From Anaeromassilibacillus senegalensis (GTDB lineage Bacteria > Bacillota > Clostridia > Oscillospirales > Acutalibacteraceae), in the NCBI RefSeq assembly GCF_021531715.1, contig NZ_JAFBIT010000003.1, positions 62,001 to 126,000 of the forward strand: 64,000 nt of DNA, in the 5' to 3' direction. How positions within the stretch are numbered: position 1 is the stretch's first letter; each line of letters begins with the position of its first letter. A program made the position numbers and the translations under genes. Shown here in pieces: positions 55,108 to 64,000 of this stretch. The notes beneath the pieces are model-generated. The model had not been told where the DNA came from and ran no database searches. It was given only the letters and a program-made list of their open reading frames with translations.

Positions 55108-56268
55108 TTACTTGTTTCGTGACAGAAGACATACCGTCTCGACGTGATTCGTGTGCGGGAACATATCGACGGGCTGTATTTTCTGGACGCGGTAGCCGCG
55201 CTTTGAGAGGAAGGTGAGGTCACGGGCGAGGGTTTCGGGGTTGCAGGAGACATACACGATGCGCTTCGGCGCGAGCGTGACGGCGGAGGAGAGGAACGCC
55301 TGGTCGCTGCCCGCACGCGGCGGGTCCATCAAGAGGACGTCGCACGGCTCGCGGTTTTCCGCCATGTCGATCATGAATTCGCCTGCGTCGGCGCAGATAA
55401 AGCGGATGTTCTGCATGCCGTTCAGTTTCGCGTTGGAGATCGCGTCGCGCACGGCGTCGCGGTTGACCTCCACGCCGAGCACCTGTCCGGCGGTTTTCGC
55501 GGCGATCATGCCGATGGTGCCGATGCCGCAGTATGCGTCGATGACCGTTTCGTGCCCCGTGAGCGCGGCGAATTCCATCGCCTTGCCGTAGAGCACCTCG
55601 GTCTGCACGGGGTTGATCTGGTAAAAGGACTTCGCCGAGATGCGGAATTTCAGCCCGCAGAGCACGTCCGTGATGTAGCCGGGGCCGTAAAGCGCCTTTT
55701 CATTCGGGCCGAGCAGCATCGAGGTGAAGCGGTCGTTGACGTTCTGCACGACCGTCGTGATCTCCGGATGGAGCTTCAGCAGCGCGCGCAGGAAGTTGTT
55801 CTTCGCGGGGAAGACCGGAGTGCCGGTCACGAGCACGACCATGACCTCGCCGGTCTGGAAGCCGCGCTTTACGAGCACATGGCGCAGAAAGCCGCGCCCT
55901 GTCACCTCGTTGTACGTCGTCATTTTGAAATCGACGAGGAGCTTCCGGATATCGACGATGATGCGGTCGGCGGTTTCGTCCTCCGTCATGCAGCTGTCCA
56001 CCGCGACGATGTTGTGCGTGCTGCTCTGGTAGATGCCGGAGATGACGCGCCCGGCGCGCGTTGTGCCGAACGCTGCCTGCACCTTGTTGCGGTAGTGGTA
56101 CGGATTTTCCATGCCGATGATCGGCTCCACATGGCAGAAGCGCCCGAGAAGCCGGATGCACAGGCGGTTTTTCCACGCGAGCTGCTCCTTGTAGCTGAGG
56201 TTCTGAAGCTGGCAGCCGCCGCATTTCTTACTGTGCGGGCAGCGGTTTTCGTTTTGAGAGGCGGTCAT
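55108..56268 (-). CDS. 23S rRNA (uracil-5-)-methyltransferase RlmCD/RlmD
   Basis: A 386-residue methyltransferase. ATG 56268 follows GGAAGGGATA. The N-terminus has the Fe-S motif CPHSKKCGGCQLQNLSY; a TRAM domain is missing. The SAM site is ETVIDAYCGIGTIGMIAA; LMDPPRAG is the target-base motif and VSCNPETLARDL has the catalytic cysteine. It makes 5-methyluridine in 23S rRNA. Base use is as in the core region, so this host gene separates two low-GC segments. Confidence 0.9.
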   Translation of the reverse strand: MTASQNENRCPHSKKCGGCQLQNLSYKEQLAWKNRLCIRLLGRFCHVEPIIGMENPYHYRNKVQAAFGTTRAGRVISGIYQSSTHNIVAVDSCMTEDETADRIIVDIRKLLVDFKMTTYNEVTGRGFLRHVLVKRGFQTGEVMVVLVTGTPVFPAKNNFLRALLKLHPEITTVVQNVNDRFTSMLLGPNEKALYGPGYITDVLCGLKFRISAKSFYQINPVQTEVLYGKAMEFAALTGHETVIDAYCGIGTIGMIAAKTAGQVLGVEVNRDAVRDAISNAKLNGMQNIRFICADAGEFMIDMAENREPCDVLLMDPPRAGSDQAFLSSAVTLAPKRIVYVSCNPETLARDLTFLSKRGYRVQKIQPVDMFPHTNHVETVCLLSRNK

Positions 56269-56423
56269 AGCGGTATCCCTTCCGTTTCCGGTTTGTTTTC
56301 TGCTTCTTTTATACCATAAGTGTGGGAGGAAATCAAGAAAAGCCCCTCGCAAAAGAGCGTTCAGCCTAGGGATAACCAAAAAAGGATATTTTTGACTGAC
56401 ACTCTTCAAGTGGGACCAACAGA

Positions 56424-56464
56424 AAGGCCACACAACAGGCTACAATGTCTGCTGTGTGGCCTTT
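56424..56464 (-). terminator. Terminator of the KwaA-like gene
   Basis: On the minus strand AAAGGCCACACA pairs with TGTGTGGCCTTT across 16 bases, with an inner CAG/CTG stem. It follows the stop codon. Confidence 0.75.
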
Positions 56465-56482
56465 CCTATTTTGCGATGATAC

Positions 56483-57052
56483 TTAATGCTGCTTTTCTTC
56501 ATTTAATTTTACAGCGTATTCATTGTTAATGGGACGTACCAATATCGTTTCGCCAATTCGAGCGGAGAGTATCTCCTGGCAGATTACAGTTTTGCTAATA
56601 GAAATACCATCTTCATTCTTGAGTTCGCAAGAATAGAATCTATAATTCATTAGCTCAAGCAATATATTCACTGAGAAATGGCTATGACGTATAGACAGAA
56701 ATGCAAAGACAAAGAAAAAAACGAGGAATAGGACTACTTCACTCCATACAGTGAAATCAAATGCAAACAGAGGGAGTATATACGATAACAAAAAATCTGC
56801 AGTAATAGTTTTTTCTTCTATAGCCGTGATAATTGAATATTCCTGTGATCCCTGCATGTTCTTGGGATTAAATTCCAGCATTAAGATAATGAGAGAAATA
56901 ATGCTGACAATCAATATCAATAAAACGCTGATTGCCTCTGTTTGTATATTCGGATTTCCCTCGCAAATGCTCTTTATATCTAAGAAAAGCACAGATATCC
57001 AAAGGGGAAAAAACGAAAGGAAAAACATGCTAAAACCCGTTATTATCGACAT
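56483..57052 (-). CDS. KwaA-like four-helix membrane protein
   Basis: A 189-residue protein from ATG 57052, which follows GGGGGAAG; a longer start at 57,091 overlaps the upstream gene. Four membrane segments are visible (MFFLSFFPLWISVLFLDI, SVLLILIVSIISLIILML, ADFLLSYILPLFAFDFTVWS, VVLFLVFFFVFAFLSI). A polar C-terminal 60 residues follow. Size, topology and pairing with a DUF4868 gene match KwaA of the Kiwa antiphage system, a membrane sensor. Direct sequence identity to known KwaA was not tested. Confidence 0.6.
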   Translation of the reverse strand: MSIITGFSMFFLSFFPLWISVLFLDIKSICEGNPNIQTEAISVLLILIVSIISLIILMLEFNPKNMQGSQEYSIITAIEEKTITADFLLSYILPLFAFDFTVWSEVVLFLVFFFVFAFLSIRHSHFSVNILLELMNYRFYSCELKNEDGISISKTVICQEILSARIGETILVRPINNEYAVKLNEEKQH

Positions 57053-57068
57053 TTTCTTCCCCCCATGA

Positions 57069-58001
57069 TTACTTCCATTGGCGCGCTCCATCGACTTCTA
57101 CTGCAGTTTTTTCAAATGGATCGATCATTCCCTTGTTGCACAGTAGTTTTACGATTTTCTCAGCTGCTCCCTCTACTGTCGCGTCAAACTTATCTCCAGC
57201 ATCATACAACGGAATAGAGAAACGCTTGGCCATTGCTACACGAATGTTTTTCTTCTTCAATGCAGTCAGCCGACTTGCATTGAAGGCAATAAATCTTCTT
57301 GGATTGTGACCGGATTCTGCAGTAGATTTAAAGCAGTCTATACCACCAATAATATTTGCTTGCTCGACTTCTTCAATTTTTTGCTGACAAACCGCTTTGT
57401 ACGAACGAGCCATATTAAAAAGGTTCTCGCCAGCCAAAGTCAAAAAGTACACCGTTTCCCCAACAACGAGAATATCCATTGTTGGTCTTAGTGATAAGAC
57501 CTTATCAGATAATTCTTCGAAAACACCATTTTTTCGGAGAAATTTATGTTTGAGCGTGGTGACAGGATTTTGCATAGAAATCAATTTTACAGGTGTACTC
57601 TCATTGTCAAGCTTAATCTGTCCCTTAAGCAGATATGCCGAGGTATATTCAAAAGGATCATTCTCGGTATTTGGATCTGCAATTACCTGCAAAAAGCTGG
57701 CATATTCCGAAGCAATCAATTCATGGGCAGTAGAAAGCTTATAAACAACAAGCGCATCTGCAGTCCCGTCATACTCACGAACTTCTCGATACGAATCGAT
57801 TGCTTTTTTTCCAGTTCCGGTATAAACAGCCGCTATATCATTTATCAATGTAGAAAGTCTTCCATTCGGAGAGAGTGTAATCTGTCTGCTACTGTATCCT
57901 GTGCCTGTCCGCTTTGATGTTTTTATATTCAACAATTGCAGGGACCAATTGCTTCCAGAACCTAGATTTTGAAACACCTTCTTAATTATATCAAGCGACA
58001 A
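57069..58001 (-). CDS. KwaB-like DUF4868 protein
   Basis: A 310-residue protein. TTG 58001 is likely, with AAGGGAG 8 bases upstream; GTG 58010 is too near that site. The middle (VTTLKHKFLRKNGVFEELSD, LSLRPTMDILVVGETVYFLT, GENLFNMARSYKAVC) fits DUF4868, the domain of KwaB. KwaB binds DNA and blocks phage in Kiwa. It begins 15 bases after the res stop codon and is followed 16 bases later by the KwaA-like gene. In the described Escherichia system kwaA comes first; here the order is reversed. Confidence 0.65.
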   Translation of the reverse strand: MSLDIIKKVFQNLGSGSNWSLQLLNIKTSKRTGTGYSSRQITLSPNGRLSTLINDIAAVYTGTGKKAIDSYREVREYDGTADALVVYKLSTAHELIASEYASFLQVIADPNTENDPFEYTSAYLLKGQIKLDNESTPVKLISMQNPVTTLKHKFLRKNGVFEELSDKVLSLRPTMDILVVGETVYFLTLAGENLFNMARSYKAVCQQKIEEVEQANIIGGIDCFKSTAESGHNPRRFIAFNASRLTALKKKNIRVAMAKRFSIPLYDAGDKFDATVEGAAEKIVKLLCNKGMIDPFEKTAVEVDGARQWK

Positions 58002-58016
58002 AATAATCACTCCCTT

Positions 58017-60665
58017 CTATACTTCTTTAAATCTACCTGCCAACTGCATGAACGAAGAGTTCGGCATGACTTGTTTAGACGGAATGAACAGATACCGCCA
58101 TTCCTTATAACCATTCGCCTTGCCCCAACGGGAAGCAACTTCGCAATACTGGATACCACGCTTTTTCTTGGCTATGACATCCGGGTCGTTGAGTTTATCT
58201 TCGCCTTTGACTTCAACGAGATAGATGACGCTTTCTGTTTCTACAACGAAGTCCGGTTCATAGCTGTGTCCGTGATTATAAGTGATATTGAATTCCAGCG
58301 GTGCCGGACGGAGCCAGTTCTGCACATCGGTATCATATTCCAATACCCGTGCGAGGAGCAGTTCCGGGTGGCTGTCAAACTTGGCTCGGTCAAATACACC
58401 CTTTTTGATACCATCGAAGAGGACAGACTGGATTTTTTCCGTATAAGCAGAAAAAAGATTGACGCGCTCGATGTAGCTATAGGACTGCTGCAAATTGTAA
58501 TCCCGGGTGCCCACCACCTCTTCCTGTAAGAATCCATTTTCACAGTAGAAGTGCTGGAGCATCTGCTTGTAGATTTTGTTGCCGATATCACGCTTGTACA
58601 TCATGATGATGTTCTGCATACCATTGGTACCGTACCGGCTTTCGTAATGGTCACAGACCTGGGTGATCAGCTTGAACAACAGCTTGGAGCATTTTTCATA
58701 ATCGATTTCCGGCTTCTTACGAAGCTGCTCCAAAATGACCTTTTTCGGATTGTATCCATCAAAATCGATGGCATCGCCTTTGATGCGCTGACGATCCTGC
58801 ATATCCTCCAGATTTTGCACCAGCAGTTCGTTCTTGATGGGCACATGAGTGAACTCGGTCATATCCAGGTCAAAGTCCACGAACACATACTCTTCAACGC
58901 CGGTATCGGTCACTTTGATCCGAGGGATGGGAATAAACTTGCTGACCGCAGCTCGATGGGTTTCCTCTGTCTGGTATAGCATCCACGCCGCAAGCGGGTT
59001 TTCATTTTCCTTGAATACATCGCCCAGGTCTTTATCTTCAGAAACCTTCTGCTTGACCGTCTCCACAATCTGCTGGGCTTGAGCAGGGGTAACCGTGTGC
59101 GCAGGCGTATGTTGGATATGCTGCGTGACCTCTGTACTGATGATTTCAGCGGCCTTTTTCAGCAGTGCATCCGTTGCCGCTGTTTTCTGAAGCTGGGTAT
59201 GCTCATAAGCCTTTTGAAGGTTTGTTTCCGGCTCGGTCTCAATCGCCAGCTGCGTATAGGCAACCTGTTCCGGTACGATTTCTTCCGCCTTGATGATATT
59301 CCCGGCTTTAAAGATAGAATCGCCCTTCTGTGCTTCAGCCAGAATGTCATTGAATTTATCGTGAGCAGTCAGCATAACTGCATCCACATCTTTGTCCCCA
59401 GTGCGTTCCCCATAGGGCAGACGCAGGCCACGGCCTACCATTTGCTCACGCAGAATTTTGGATGCAGCCGTTCGGAGAGGAACGATTGTATAAAGGTTAT
59501 TAACGTCCCACCCCTCTTTGAGCATGTTGACGTGAATGACAATTTCCACCGGATTTTCCGGATTTTCCACATCCAGAAGCAGGCGGGTGTTGGCTTCGGT
59601 TTCAGAACCCTTTTGCTTGGAATGGACGATAATGGTCTTGTTTCGATAAGCTCCGCCGCGAAATTCATCGGATTTGACAAACTTCTCCACCCAGGCCGCA
59701 TGGTCGGTGTCCTTGCAGACGACCAGCATAAACGGTTTTACAAGCCGTTTGCCGTGATTGGCAGCGTAAACCTCCAGCTTGCGTTTCGTGTTCTCATGAC
59801 AGGCGATGCCGTCCAGCAGCATCATTTTATCGAGTTGCTCATCGCCAAAGTTGTAAAAATCAATATCGGAACGGGTAACCGCATACGGAGTACGGGTATA
59901 GCCATCCTCAATCGCCTTGGACAGCGGATACTCATATACCACATTTTTGAAAGGAATCTGCTTGCTTCCCTGGGTCACAAGGGGTGTGGCGGTCAATTCC
60001 AGGCCCAGAAGCGGATGCAGTTCGTTGAGTGCCTGTGCGCCCTTTTCTGCCCGATAGTGGTGGGATTCATCCATAATGAGGACCAAATCCGGCAATTCGG
60101 ACAGATACTGATAGAACGAGTTGCCAATCAGCTCGTTCACTTTTTTCATGTTCGCGCCTTCCTTATTGAACTTGTCGATGTTGTATACGAAAATATGAAC
60201 ATCGGATTCAAACAGGGAAATCGTTTTTTCGCGATAATCATCATCCGTGATAATCTGCGGTGCCGTGACGAAGCAGCCGAGGCCGCGGAACACATATTTT
60301 TCGCTGTTGCTGTCGCTCAGATCCTTCTTCAGCTTCTCATAAATTGTTGTATTCGGCGCGACAACGAAGAAGTTGCGGATATTGTGCTGGGTATATAAAT
60401 GGGCAATGAACGCACCCATCAGCCGGGTTTTGCCCACGCCGGTAGCCAGGGCAAAGGTCAGCGACATGAAATCCCGCTCAAAATCGGAGCAGATCGGATA
60501 CATGGCGTGGACAGCACCGAGGGCAGCCTTCAGGTTCATAGCCTTGCGAAGCTGCACAGTATTGACAATCTCCTCCAGAATTTTGAGAGACTGCGTCTGC
60601 GGCTTGCGCAGGGACATGACGCCGCTGATATAGTCCGTGGTATATTGAGGAAAATGATTATTCAT
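58017..60665 (-). CDS. Type III restriction enzyme Res subunit
   Basis: An 882-residue protein from ATG 60665, whose start overlaps the end of the methylase ORF by 8 bases. The SF2 helicase motor has Walker A ATGVGKTR, DEAD-like LIMDESHHYRA, LTATPL, and MVGRGLRLPYG. The C-terminal nuclease is of PD-(D/E)xK type: PDFVVETESVIYLVEVKGED. Type III Res needs Mod for target recognition and cutting. It appears complete, unlike its Mod partner. Confidence 0.92.
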   Translation of the reverse strand: MNNHFPQYTTDYISGVMSLRKPQTQSLKILEEIVNTVQLRKAMNLKAALGAVHAMYPICSDFERDFMSLTFALATGVGKTRLMGAFIAHLYTQHNIRNFFVVAPNTTIYEKLKKDLSDSNSEKYVFRGLGCFVTAPQIITDDDYREKTISLFESDVHIFVYNIDKFNKEGANMKKVNELIGNSFYQYLSELPDLVLIMDESHHYRAEKGAQALNELHPLLGLELTATPLVTQGSKQIPFKNVVYEYPLSKAIEDGYTRTPYAVTRSDIDFYNFGDEQLDKMMLLDGIACHENTKRKLEVYAANHGKRLVKPFMLVVCKDTDHAAWVEKFVKSDEFRGGAYRNKTIIVHSKQKGSETEANTRLLLDVENPENPVEIVIHVNMLKEGWDVNNLYTIVPLRTAASKILREQMVGRGLRLPYGERTGDKDVDAVMLTAHDKFNDILAEAQKGDSIFKAGNIIKAEEIVPEQVAYTQLAIETEPETNLQKAYEHTQLQKTAATDALLKKAAEIISTEVTQHIQHTPAHTVTPAQAQQIVETVKQKVSEDKDLGDVFKENENPLAAWMLYQTEETHRAAVSKFIPIPRIKVTDTGVEEYVFVDFDLDMTEFTHVPIKNELLVQNLEDMQDRQRIKGDAIDFDGYNPKKVILEQLRKKPEIDYEKCSKLLFKLITQVCDHYESRYGTNGMQNIIMMYKRDIGNKIYKQMLQHFYCENGFLQEEVVGTRDYNLQQSYSYIERVNLFSAYTEKIQSVLFDGIKKGVFDRAKFDSHPELLLARVLEYDTDVQNWLRPAPLEFNITYNHGHSYEPDFVVETESVIYLVEVKGEDKLNDPDVIAKKKRGIQYCEVASRWGKANGYKEWRYLFIPSKQVMPNSSFMQLAGRFKEV

Positions 60666-62229
60666 CCTGTTCCTCCTCTTCTGCTTCATCGTCATAGACC
60701 GGTGGATGTACAATGTTCAGGTTGTAATCGGTCTTGCCGAACTCACAGCGGTCAAGCAGCATTTGCGGTATTTTTTTGACGGTGATATTGCCGTACGCCT
60801 TGTCCAGACCGCTGTCAAAGGAGCGGCAGGCGATAATCAGGTATTCGCCCTCCTCCATGGTGTCCTTGATGGAGTCCAGATAGATGCTGTTGAGGTGCCG
60901 TGTGGTCACGAAGAGGTAGCTGCTCTCGTTGCCCACGGACTGCTTCCAGAACAGACTGCTGTCCGGCTGATAGCGGAAGCCCTCATGCAGCGCAACTGCC
61001 GCCGCCAGCATATCCGCATCATACGCTCCATTGATGACATACTCATCAAAGGGGTCTTTGTTGATAAGGGTCGGGGCAACCTCATAGAAACGGTAACCAC
61101 CGCCACCCTGCCAATTCTGTGCTTTGGTGATGCCAAGCAAATCCGTACCAGCAATTACTGAATCAAGTCTTGTTTTACAGTGGGTGTATGCATGGTTACC
61201 CATTTCAATGCCAATGTATCGTCTCCCCATTTTGTGTGCGACGGCAGCGGTTGTTCCAGAACCTAAGAAACTATCCAAAACGATATCTCCAGGCTCAGTT
61301 GACATTTCAATTATGCGACGCAATAACTGTTCAGGCTTTTTACTCCTTGGAAAGTACACGCCCCCTTCGTTAGCAATGTCAGCTTTGGGGATTTCACTGT
61401 GTTTCCAAAGCGTAGTCATTTTCTGCGACTTTGTAAGCATACCATTTTCAAGGGCTGTGGTATCTTTGAGCCAGGATAGAAGCTCACAATTATAATAGTA
61501 CAAAGTAGTCTGTTCGTCCTTATTCTTACCGCGGCTTGGAATGTAATCTACCGAATAAAACTTACCTTTTTCTAACGACGCAATGATATCATTTTGAAAC
61601 TCATTTTCTTTTTGCACTCGATTTCCTCGGAAAAGAGAACCCAAATGAGTGACAAACTCCTGACGTATTTCTGCTTCGCGATTCTTTACATCACGCAAAG
61701 AAATACTTTCAATTTCAACGCCGGAATGTTCGTAAATACGAACAACTTCTCCATTGGATTTAGCGGTAAACTCTCTAACAAGTTTGCGCTCACCGAAACT
61801 TGATACATAGCGGTTATATCTTTTAATAATGTTAAACCCAAGTTCTTCAAAGCTGAGATTTGTTTTATCTGGCAAAGCACCTTTTCTGTATAGTAAAATA
61901 TGCTCCGTCGTATTTACAAGATACCCACCTTGTCCTAGCCCCGCTACAGCCGAACGCTCATATGTAATATGTGCGACAAAATTTTGACGAGAGAAAATTT
62001 CATCGAGAACCACCTTGCAATAATGCACTTCTACGTCATCCAAATGGATCCAAAACATTCCATTTGCTTCAAGCAGATTATATAAATGTTTGAATCTCTG
62101 GTACATCAAATTTAACCAAATTGAATGCTCCAGATTATCATCATAATGTTCAAAAGCCTGTCCAGTATTAAATGGAGGGTCTATAAAGACGCTGTCTTTG
62201 ATACAAACAGAAAAAGCCTTCTCCGGCAC
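60658..62229 (-). pseudogene. Type III DNA methyltransferase Mod, 5'-truncated
   Basis: About 515 residues of a beta-class N6-adenine methylase. Motif IV DPPFNTG is only about 20 residues from the only possible start, where intact Mods have 80 or more; motif I DSFLGSGTTAAVA is in the C-terminal half. Upstream codons reach a terminator hairpin (62,214-62,249) within about ten codons of motif IV. The central target recognition domain is intact. The gene has lost its start and N-terminus and probably any promoter of its own. Confidence 0.75.
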
Positions 62230-62249
62230 ATAAGTGCTGAAAAAGGCTT
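62214..62249 (-). terminator. Terminator hairpin at the mod breakpoint
   Basis: AAGCCTTTTTCAGCAC and GTGCCGGAGAAGGCTT pair on the minus strand with two small mismatches, followed by TTTCTGTTTG. Confidence 0.65.
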
Positions 62250-62255
62250 GAAATA

Positions 62256-62306
62256 AAGGGCTTTCGAGGTTCCGCTGTGTTTTACAGCAGAGCTTCGGAA
62301 GCCCTT
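62256..62306. repeat. 51-base imperfect inverted repeat
   Basis: AAGGGCTTTCGAGG and CTTCGGAAGCCCTT arms around an inner GCTGTG/TACAGC stem. It lies between the SLOG gene and the mod breakpoint. Confidence 0.6.
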
Positions 62307-62412
62307 ATTCTGTTTATTCGATTGTCGCCGGCCGGTTCTGTGGCCTTTGAAACTTACCCCTCAAAGCCGACTGTCGGAGGAATAATTAAAAAGTGTGGAA
62401 TAATTAAAAGGT

Positions 62413-62883
62413 TCAGTCGGTGGCGAGGTTGATTACAGTCTTGCCGCTTTTCTCTGCATAGGCCTTTGTCTGATAGGCCCCACCGCTCTCGTGTTCAACA
62501 TAGCACACCACCAGATCAGACCGGTCTACCATACTCCGGTTCCTTACCTGAATCGCTGCTTTTGGATGGCTCCGGGCGGCTTCATCACAGACTTCGACTC
62601 TGTCGTAATACTCGTCGAAGGAGTCCACATTGTCGGTGTATTCGGCTTTCGGGTACGCCAGCACCCAGACGAGTTCGTTGTTGTCGTCCCGGATGTCACG
62701 CTTTGCCCGTCTGACTGTCGATGCCACAATCTGGTCAAACTCGCCATCTCGTCCGATCAGGAACTCCACATATTCTTTTTCGGTAATGAGCTTCCTGACC
62801 AACTCAGTAACCTTTTCTTCAGTTTCAAAGAAGCGGTCAACCTGACGGTGGCCAAAGAAGGACACGGTATAGACATCGAGCAA
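62413..62883 (-). CDS. SLOG-fold protein (DUF1273/YpsA-like)
   Basis: A 156-residue protein starting at TTG 62883, with GAGG 9 bases upstream. The Rossmann-like SLOG core is seen in FFGHRQVDRF, FLIGRDGEFDQIVASTVRRA, and DLVVCYVEHESGGAYQTKAYAEK, where Gly and Ser bind nucleotide phosphate. YpsA-type SLOG proteins may bind NAD or ADP-ribose ligands. It sits between mcrC and the mod remnant on the same strand, so it may act as a sensor or accessory in defence. Confidence 0.82.
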   Translation of the reverse strand: MLDVYTVSFFGHRQVDRFFETEEKVTELVRKLITEKEYVEFLIGRDGEFDQIVASTVRRAKRDIRDDNNELVWVLAYPKAEYTDNVDSFDEYYDRVEVCDEAARSHPKAAIQVRNRSMVDRSDLVVCYVEHESGGAYQTKAYAEKSGKTVINLATD

Positions 62884-62901
62884 GCACTGTCGCCTCGTTT
62901 C

Positions 62902-63960
62902 TTATGAAAAGTGTTCTGTGACTATTGCATTCAGCTGTGCAGCAATCTCCGAGAAATCCCGGTTCAAATCAAGCGTCTTCACGCTGATCTTGTTGCCGCT
63001 CATCTGATAGCTGTTGTCCGGCTGAATAGCCTCGTCCGTTGCGGCATAAAGTAGCATACCGGAAACCTTATGGGGCTGCTCCCCGAACTCCGTATCCTTG
63101 TTCTTGACGTAGGTAAAGATCTGATACAGATTGCCGGAATGGAGCGTGTGGACGTCGTACTGTGTTTGCGTAGTATGCGTGTAGTACTTAGCATCAATTA
63201 TTAGCACTGTATCGCCAGACCTGCTTGTGAGCATGATGTCGCTCTGCATTACCGGCAGCATCGTCCCGATACCATCATCCAAGGCCCACGGGATTTGCGA
63301 GGCCGTCGCCGTCACCTGCGGGCACTCCTTGGCGTAGTATTCGAGGATGAATTTTTCGTACAAACGGTTCATGCGCTGCTCATCCACAAAGGAGGCCAGC
63401 TTGTATTCTCCGGAGTCTGTGGTCAGAAGCATTCCTTCCAGAATGAGCTGGCAGAGGCTGATGAGCATCCGATAGGTATTGTTGTTTCTCTGGAACCGAA
63501 TGGCTGACCAGCGGATCGTGGTGGGATCGATTGTGTCAACATTCGAGAAGAACAGCATTTCCTTTTTCAGATCGCTTTTGTACTCCTGATCCACCCTCGT
63601 GTGCCGGAGCAGAAGCATAACAGTCGTTTTCAGTATCTGATTCAGGAGATTGTTCTCGGAAAGCTCGTCGTACTCGCAGGTCAGCACCCGCTTTCTGGCA
63701 AGGCGGTTCTGAATGGTCCCCGGCATATCAATCTTGCCTCGGACTACCGCAACATCCTCCTTGCGGTTCAAATACTCCCGGTACAGGCCCTGTTTCAACT
63801 GTCTGCTGATGCCCTTCGCCAGAATCGCAGCGAAGAGGTTATGCATGTTCTCAAACTCTTCGGTAGCAACATCCTCATAACCGCCTTGATTCAGCGTCGT
63901 GAAGGCATACGAAAGCATATAGTATATGTTTTTTATGAAGATGCTCTTATCCTTAATCAT
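62902..63960 (-). CDS. mcrC: McrC subunit of a 5-methylcytosine-type restriction system
   Basis: A 352-residue McrC. ATG 63960 has AAGGTG upstream and overlaps the stop of the previous gene as ATGA. Motifs: NIYYMLSYAF at the N-terminus, LLNQILKTTVMLLL, MNRLYEKFILEYYA, and the PD-(D/E)xK nuclease core SDIMLTSRSGDTVLIIDAKYY. McrC is the nuclease that works with the GTPase McrB, whose end is probably just upstream. Confidence 0.9.
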   Translation of the reverse strand: MIKDKSIFIKNIYYMLSYAFTTLNQGGYEDVATEEFENMHNLFAAILAKGISRQLKQGLYREYLNRKEDVAVVRGKIDMPGTIQNRLARKRVLTCEYDELSENNLLNQILKTTVMLLLRHTRVDQEYKSDLKKEMLFFSNVDTIDPTTIRWSAIRFQRNNNTYRMLISLCQLILEGMLLTTDSGEYKLASFVDEQRMNRLYEKFILEYYAKECPQVTATASQIPWALDDGIGTMLPVMQSDIMLTSRSGDTVLIIDAKYYTHTTQTQYDVHTLHSGNLYQIFTYVKNKDTEFGEQPHKVSGMLLYAATDEAIQPDNSYQMSGNKISVKTLDLNRDFSEIAAQLNAIVTEHFS

Positions 63961-64000
63961 TGAAACACACCTTGCAGAATGTTCTCCCAACGCTGGAGCT
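63957..64000 (-). CDS. 3' end of the gene before mcrC, probably mcrB
   Basis: Fourteen codons remain (LQRWENILQGVFQ then TGA), running off the window. The TGA overlaps the mcrC ATG. Position and coupling suggest McrB, the GTP-driven partner, but the sequence is too short to prove it. Confidence 0.5.
   Translation of the reverse strand, partial: LQRWENILQGVFQ

Follow-up and report, generated by a model that had tools for sequence, protein, structure and literature searches.

A predicted kwaB-first Kiwa gene pair closing a defence island in Anaeromassilibacillus senegalensis

Layout of the locus

The window, by which we mean the whole 64,000-nucleotide stretch analysed here (Anaeromassilibacillus senegalensis, contig NZ_JAFBIT010000003.1, positions 62,001 to 126,000), carries on its minus strand mcrC, an SLOG-like gene, mod, res, kwaB, kwaA and then rumA, in that order:

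62902-63990, minus strand: mcrC, above the cut-off of the NCBIfam McrC model
62413-62883, minus strand: SLOG-like gene of 156 residues (the label is our own reading)
62188..62412, minus strand: hairpin-rich dispersed repeat adjoining the truncated mod
60658..62229, minus strand: mod, type III methyltransferase minus about 60 N-terminal residues
58017..60665, minus strand: res, type III restriction subunit, 882 residues from ATG (frame open to 60713)
57069..58001, minus strand: kwaB, 310 residues from TTG (alternative GTG at 58010)
56483..57052, minus strand: kwaA, membrane protein of 189 residues from ATG (frame open to 57091)
56423..56466, minus strand: strong hairpin between kwaA and rumA, a possible transcript end
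55108-56433: rumA (rumA/rlmD, 23S rRNA methyltransferase), beyond kwaA

Judged by eye, the open reading frames upstream of the window are presumably mcrB and the three genes of a type I system, hsdM-hsdS-hsdR, giving a defence island with the order type I restriction-modification, McrBC, SLOG-like gene, mod/res, kwaB, kwaA, rumA.

As originally predicted, kwaB and kwaA follow res in a same-strand run, with 15 bases between the res stop and kwaB and 16 between the kwaB stop and kwaA, and each gap holds a run resembling a ribosome-binding site; the two kwa genes are adjacent and on one strand, as expected of a Kiwa pair. The kwaB frame (57069-58010) begins with GTG, and TTG at 58001 is the likelier start because homologues begin MSL and AAGGGAG lies upstream of it, and the refuting condition of the original prediction also took this start; in the kwaA frame (56483-57091) the likelier start is ATG at 57052, preceded by GGGGGGAAG. 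The hairpin beyond kwaA (-32.3 kcal/mol, z -6.15 against shuffles) is absent from the list produced by a terminator scan, promoter-like sites were no more frequent than chance (12 found, 11.1 expected), and an Rfam search of positions 56000-64000 returned no family at gathering score. The G+C content of the kwa genes is 0.35 and 0.40, that of mod 0.44 and that of hsdM, res, mcrBC and hsdR 0.47-0.50.

Two further observations concern the genomic setting. A rumA/rlmD gene adjoins the kwa pair or lies a few genes off in four separate loci (55108-56433 here; L013, 6281-7972; L083, 2921-4369; L086, 639-2339), which suggests that defence islands have an insertion site in common there. Elsewhere in the same genome, a Shedu-like SduA_C gene (61.8 bits) stands beside a recombinase-like open reading frame (L111, G000:C1:333206-333646).

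Identity of KwaB and KwaA

The product of 57,069-58,001 had been proposed to be a DUF4868/KwaB protein, and it passes the Pfam KwaB model (PF16162, DUF4868) with 34.9 bits against a cut-off of 26.3 (2e-8) and matches the PADLOC KwaB model at 1.5e-6; its NCBIfam equivalog score of 26.5 bits lies below the strict cut-off of 200. An AF2 single-chain model (pLDDT 87 and pTM 0.82, with the last 20 or so residues below 50) takes the fold of solved KwaB, with a Foldseek value of 8.2e-10 to 9mrx_D and a VIA Z of 16.8 (rmsd 4.2, 274 residues aligned) to 9mtn_B. The highest non-Kiwa row in that VIA search stood at Z 5.1, and the rows at or below this value, among them PNP-oxidase-like proteins and YejK, were rejected as background far below the Kiwa rows. 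A KwaB profile searched against PDB sequences matched no KwaB, and the KwaB structures were reached by fold only.

The assignment of the membrane protein to KwaA held as well, on three lines of evidence. Thirteen PADLOC KwaA models matched it (best 3.6e-13), a profile of 16 rows found the solved KwaA entries 9o0i (4.6e-16) and 9mrg (6.4e-16) in the PDB, and its AF2 single-chain model (pLDDT 78, pTM 0.66), with helical spans at 3-31, 36-60, 82-97 and 103-122 and a C-terminal strand domain, matches solved KwaA by Foldseek (1.5e-7) and 9mrx_A by VIA (Z 15.0, rmsd 3.5, 183 aligned; highest non-Kiwa row Z 4.1). The NCBIfam equivalog score was 57.4 bits, below the strict cut-off of 100. Structural comparison with KwaA and KwaB had been named beforehand as the result on which the prediction could fail, and both models match solved Kiwa, Kiwa entries across the two VIA searches reaching Z 13.7-16.8. 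Both proteins are therefore homologues of the Kiwa components by sequence and by fold, with an identity to the solved proteins of only 10-17%; this low identity, the missed equivalog cut-offs and the lack of a KwaB match by PDB profile indicate that the details of the Kiwa system in the window may differ from those known. In one relative (L104, 4086-5123), KwaA is 345 residues long and extended at its N-terminus by about 134 residues; the KwaA match starts at residue 135.

Gene order among relatives

The pair is conserved, with homologous kwa pairs at about 30 further loci and a near-identical pair in UBA7225 (KwaB 98%; KwaA 96% over 167 columns). Three KwaB family searches, each of them counting the window's genome, gave hits in 8 of 296 relatives, in 12 of 391 genomes from the class and in 8 of 398 from the phylum, together 26 genomes. 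Six were dropped: G471 has no kwaA beside kwaB, G626 is cut at a contig edge, G557 is a fragment, G506 encodes a stand-alone KwaB-like protein, and G1014 and G1138 have long reading frames that the KwaB profile does not recognise. The remaining 20 have both genes side by side, 15 with kwaA first and five with kwaB first (the window's genome, G142, G459, G413 and G1039, where kwaB is split). A pattern-based scan of GTDB species genomes with the KwaB alignment returned 17 loci, of which 12 (L071-L082, with L079 and L080 near-copies) have a KwaB identity of at least 41% and are all kwaB-first; four (L083-L086, 24-27%) are kwaA-first and L087 is a fragment.

In trees built from 30 of the 34 pairs (without L102, L078, L082 and L080), the window falls in a ten-row kwaB-first clade supported at 97/94 for KwaB and 96/94 for KwaA, and the two trees agree. 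The sister of this clade is a five-row kwaA-first clade. Gene order changed three times on the best trees and at least twice by well-supported branches; several long branches make the deeper placements unsure. The kwaB-first order is thus real, inherited and not unique.

At the limits used, with viral scans that were pattern-limited, the window KwaB had no relatives in plasmids, phages or viral contigs, and two other KwaB queries likewise found nothing in plasmids. A KwaB-like protein of about 315 residues occurs amid housekeeping-looking genes with no KwaA in view at L049, L050, L051, L053-L058 and L069; that of L069 (in G506) lies just under the Pfam KwaB cut-off, and that of L049 has no NCBIfam match at 0.001.

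The type III neighbour, DNA-modification operons and known Kiwa systems

The res product is well recognised (Pfam ResIII 82.1 bits, PADLOC REase_III 4.1e-143), with a RE_endonuc score of 17.4 bits under the cut-off of 23.4. An intact Mod subunit is missing: the PADLOC MTase_III match of mod begins at profile position 71, the gene begins near the catalytic Asp-Pro-Pro motif, the alignment with the intact relative in L092 does not set in before residue 61 of the latter, and by eye no reading of the missing N-terminus was found upstream in three frames. Because of this 5' truncation, the type III system is probably inactive. The truncation looks old, since the same truncated start occurs in the related genome G086, where both mod and res are frame-broken.

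The repeat of about 225 bases, rich in hairpins, stops at the point from which the truncated mod continues, its Asp-Pro-Pro motif, and in G086 the same truncated mod is preceded by a copy with 90% identity; the repeat recurs in other places too (all copies: 62188-62412; L091; L138, 10076-10291; L139, 2359-2598). On the IMG/VR contig L139, the repeat (79%) borders an hsdM-like gene that is truncated at its 5' end, at an Asp-Pro-Ala motif, and it also occurs elsewhere in G086 and in L138, there without a truncated methyltransferase gene. It is odd that one repeat cuts two unrelated methyltransferase genes at a similar motif.

The original prediction had also raised the possibility that res and the kwa pair form one combined restriction-Kiwa machine, a reading that we reject and consider very improbable. 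In its favour are the 15-base spacing on one strand, the retention of res-kwaB-kwaA in UBA7225 (95.3% identical over 4,244 bases) and purifying selection on res (dN/dS 0.06 against UBA7225). Against this, mod is broken in the window and also in UBA7225, where only its two ends remain, out of frame, in a metagenome assembly in which an artefact is possible. Moreover, res at or below 1e-100 occurs in three of 250 family genomes, namely the window's, G086 (83%) and G156 (50%), and the latter two have no kwa genes in the 14-16 kb examined around res; the triplet of res, DUF4868 and membrane protein genes is kept in UBA7225 and absent from these two. Upstream genes are visible in five other members of the clade; there the pair follows different genes and no res is in view. 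Synonymous divergence from UBA7225 is also unequal, with 129.75 differences in 586 sites in res and 20 in 317 in kwaB plus kwaA (p 1.6e-10; the kwaA end, cut by the contig, was left out), or about four times as much in res. By these sequence comparisons, res and kwaBA seem to have separate histories, and kwaBA has the look of a cassette that settled behind res, most likely as a chance neighbour; the lower G+C content of the kwa genes also speaks for such movement; that res and kwaBA stayed together in UBA7225 counts against such a cassette. A related observation is that the dN/dS of res is about 0.04 against G086, where synonymous sites are saturated, while mod is damaged in the window, UBA7225 and G086; purifying selection on res fits poorly with a dead Mod.

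The pair itself could be a decaying, functionless remnant like the adjoining mod. The broken neighbour, the low G+C content and a kwaA dN/dS of 0.46 against UBA7225, based on as few as 11 differences (7 non-synonymous and 4 synonymous), are in line with decay; however, both reading frames have their full length and retain the columns conserved in the 16-row alignments, kwaB has a dN/dS of 0.12 and both models take the shapes of solved Kiwa, and we regard loss of function as improbable.

Kwa pairs elsewhere repeatedly stand among or beside DNA-modification genes. Within the ten-row clade, the surroundings are as follows, the remaining members being cut upstream by contig ends:

L072: type II/Mrr set upstream of the pair
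L079: after a Dnd phosphorothioation operon, dndBCDE-dndA-HNH-MT-kwaB-kwaA, the nearest gene methyltransferase-like and the Dnd genes just beyond
L076: SIR2 gene upstream, with a mod-like gene farther up past an opposite-strand gene
L075: Schlafen/AlbA-type gene upstream
L047: integrase-like gene on the other strand

Outside the clade, we observed:

L067: inside BREX, brxC-pglX-kwaA-kwaB-brxHI-pglZ
L014: after BREX, pglZ-brxL-kwaA-kwaB
L015: inside type I, hsdM-kwaB-kwaA-hsdS
L065: before type I
L100: after an hsdR-like gene
L064, L083: after IIG-type or specificity genes
L012: dndE-kwaA-kwaB

A restriction, BREX or Dnd gene lies in the same run in 11 of 32 distinct kwa pairs (34 pairs less the near-copies L071 and L080) and in one of 21 control loci (Fisher p 0.017; p 0.009 for the 8 of 20 pairs in the family-search sample), a comparison made post hoc, once the pattern had been noticed. 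The count of 11 is a lower bound, as the larger same-strand neighbours within 200 bases were compared with the family library and about a dozen others, small or clearly of another kind, were assessed by eye alone (for example L047, L062, L063, L082 and L103). Controls from the same class, with flanks of 1.5 kb, comprised 5 of 6 Shedu and 16 of 19 AbiEii rows (L114 and L127 fell below the cut-off; L131 and L132 were left out), and 19 control neighbours were compared with PADLOC. One of these (L128) matches the DpdF model and is in our reading an ordinary topoisomerase; counting it would give p 0.053 and 0.032. The count leaves aside a C5-methyltransferase frame in L109, which lies on the opposite strand at a distance of 687 bases from the Shedu gene. 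A link between kwaB-first order and restriction neighbours was rejected (5 of 15 kwaB-first and 6 of 17 kwaA-first pairs, p 1). Neither Kwa nor DUF4868 appears in the main text of a Dnd survey (PMC10853773) or of a BREX survey (PMC12839542), and the BREX survey does not name Kiwa either; the literature searched yielded no report of Kiwa placed in modification operons.

These neighbourhoods raise the idea that Kiwa recurs as an auxiliary effector in defence operons built on DNA modification, of which the window would be a decayed example: modification enzymes would mark self DNA, and KwaA and KwaB, under shared transcription, would form a second layer close to the membrane that acts on DNA which restriction has missed. 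The excess over controls argues for it; against it stand the post hoc, small and short-flanked comparison with its sensitivity to L128, the 21 of 32 pairs in which no such neighbour is visible (a contig end cuts 6 of them upstream), the variety of partners inside the window's own clade and the putative nature of any reading of DNA modification by KwaB. We consider this account unlikely. Its general form is equally doubtful, namely that across Bacillota Kiwa serves DNA-modification immunity as a plug-in effector, inserted in or appended to BREX, Dnd phosphorothioation and type I, II or III operons in either order, and provides a co-expressed, membrane-bound, DNA-trapping complex that may take its self/non-self cue from the modification system or back it up.

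Our preferred reading, which we hold to be likely, is that kwaB-kwaA is a complete predicted Kiwa system of the Clostridia kwaB-first clade, a self-contained two-gene cassette that ends the defence island. By analogy, the window pair probably works like known Kiwa: the genes would be transcribed from the upstream res transcript, and their products would be expressed and assemble, with KwaA as a complex in the membrane that detects the attachment of a phage or its injection and keeps hold of KwaB; KwaB in turn would bind the incoming DNA and block its replication and late transcription, protecting the cell against phage. The kwaA dN/dS of 0.46 and the chance-level frequency of promoter-like sites weigh against this reading. 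The damaged type III system may lend its position, and perhaps transcription, and would not be a partner of Kiwa.

The finding extends Kiwa to a well-supported kwaB-first clade, drawn mostly from Clostridia metagenomes and of low similarity to solved Kiwa, and makes gene order an unsafe criterion for calling the system. If placement in or beside modification operons holds in a larger survey, it would point to the means by which Kiwa escapes self-targeting or to the systems for which it acts as a backup.

In known Kiwa, KwaA tetramers sit in the membrane with KwaB dimers, and the complex is recruited to the site of injection, where KwaB binds phage DNA and stops its replication and late transcription without cutting, as described in PMC12904381. 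The solved systems (9mrx complex; 9mrr and 9mrg for KwaA; 9mtn and 9nyu for KwaB) share with the window two adjacent same-strand genes and both folds, which agree along most of each protein; the window differs in sequence, as set out above, and in having kwaB before kwaA, where the canonical sub-type has kwaA and then kwaB. The res and mod genes upstream belong to type III restriction-modification and are not part of Kiwa. Streptococcus thermophilus 90730 is already listed with 'Kiwa (kwaB, kwaA)', ORFs 0688 and 0689, and its cloned pair lowered plaquing by 5 logs for phage sk1 and by 4 logs for phage c2 (PMC11514479); we take the listing to give the gene order. Thus, the reversed order and the Gram-positive relatives that had been predicted are real, while neither the order, found in a quarter of the sampled pairs and apparently in print, nor a Gram-positive Kiwa is new, and the swap amounts to a variant that recurs, not to a new system. 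Likened by its description in PMC11514479, the S. thermophilus system resembles that of the window in its Gram-positive host and kwaB-first listing and, unlike it, lies in a CRISPR3-associated island.
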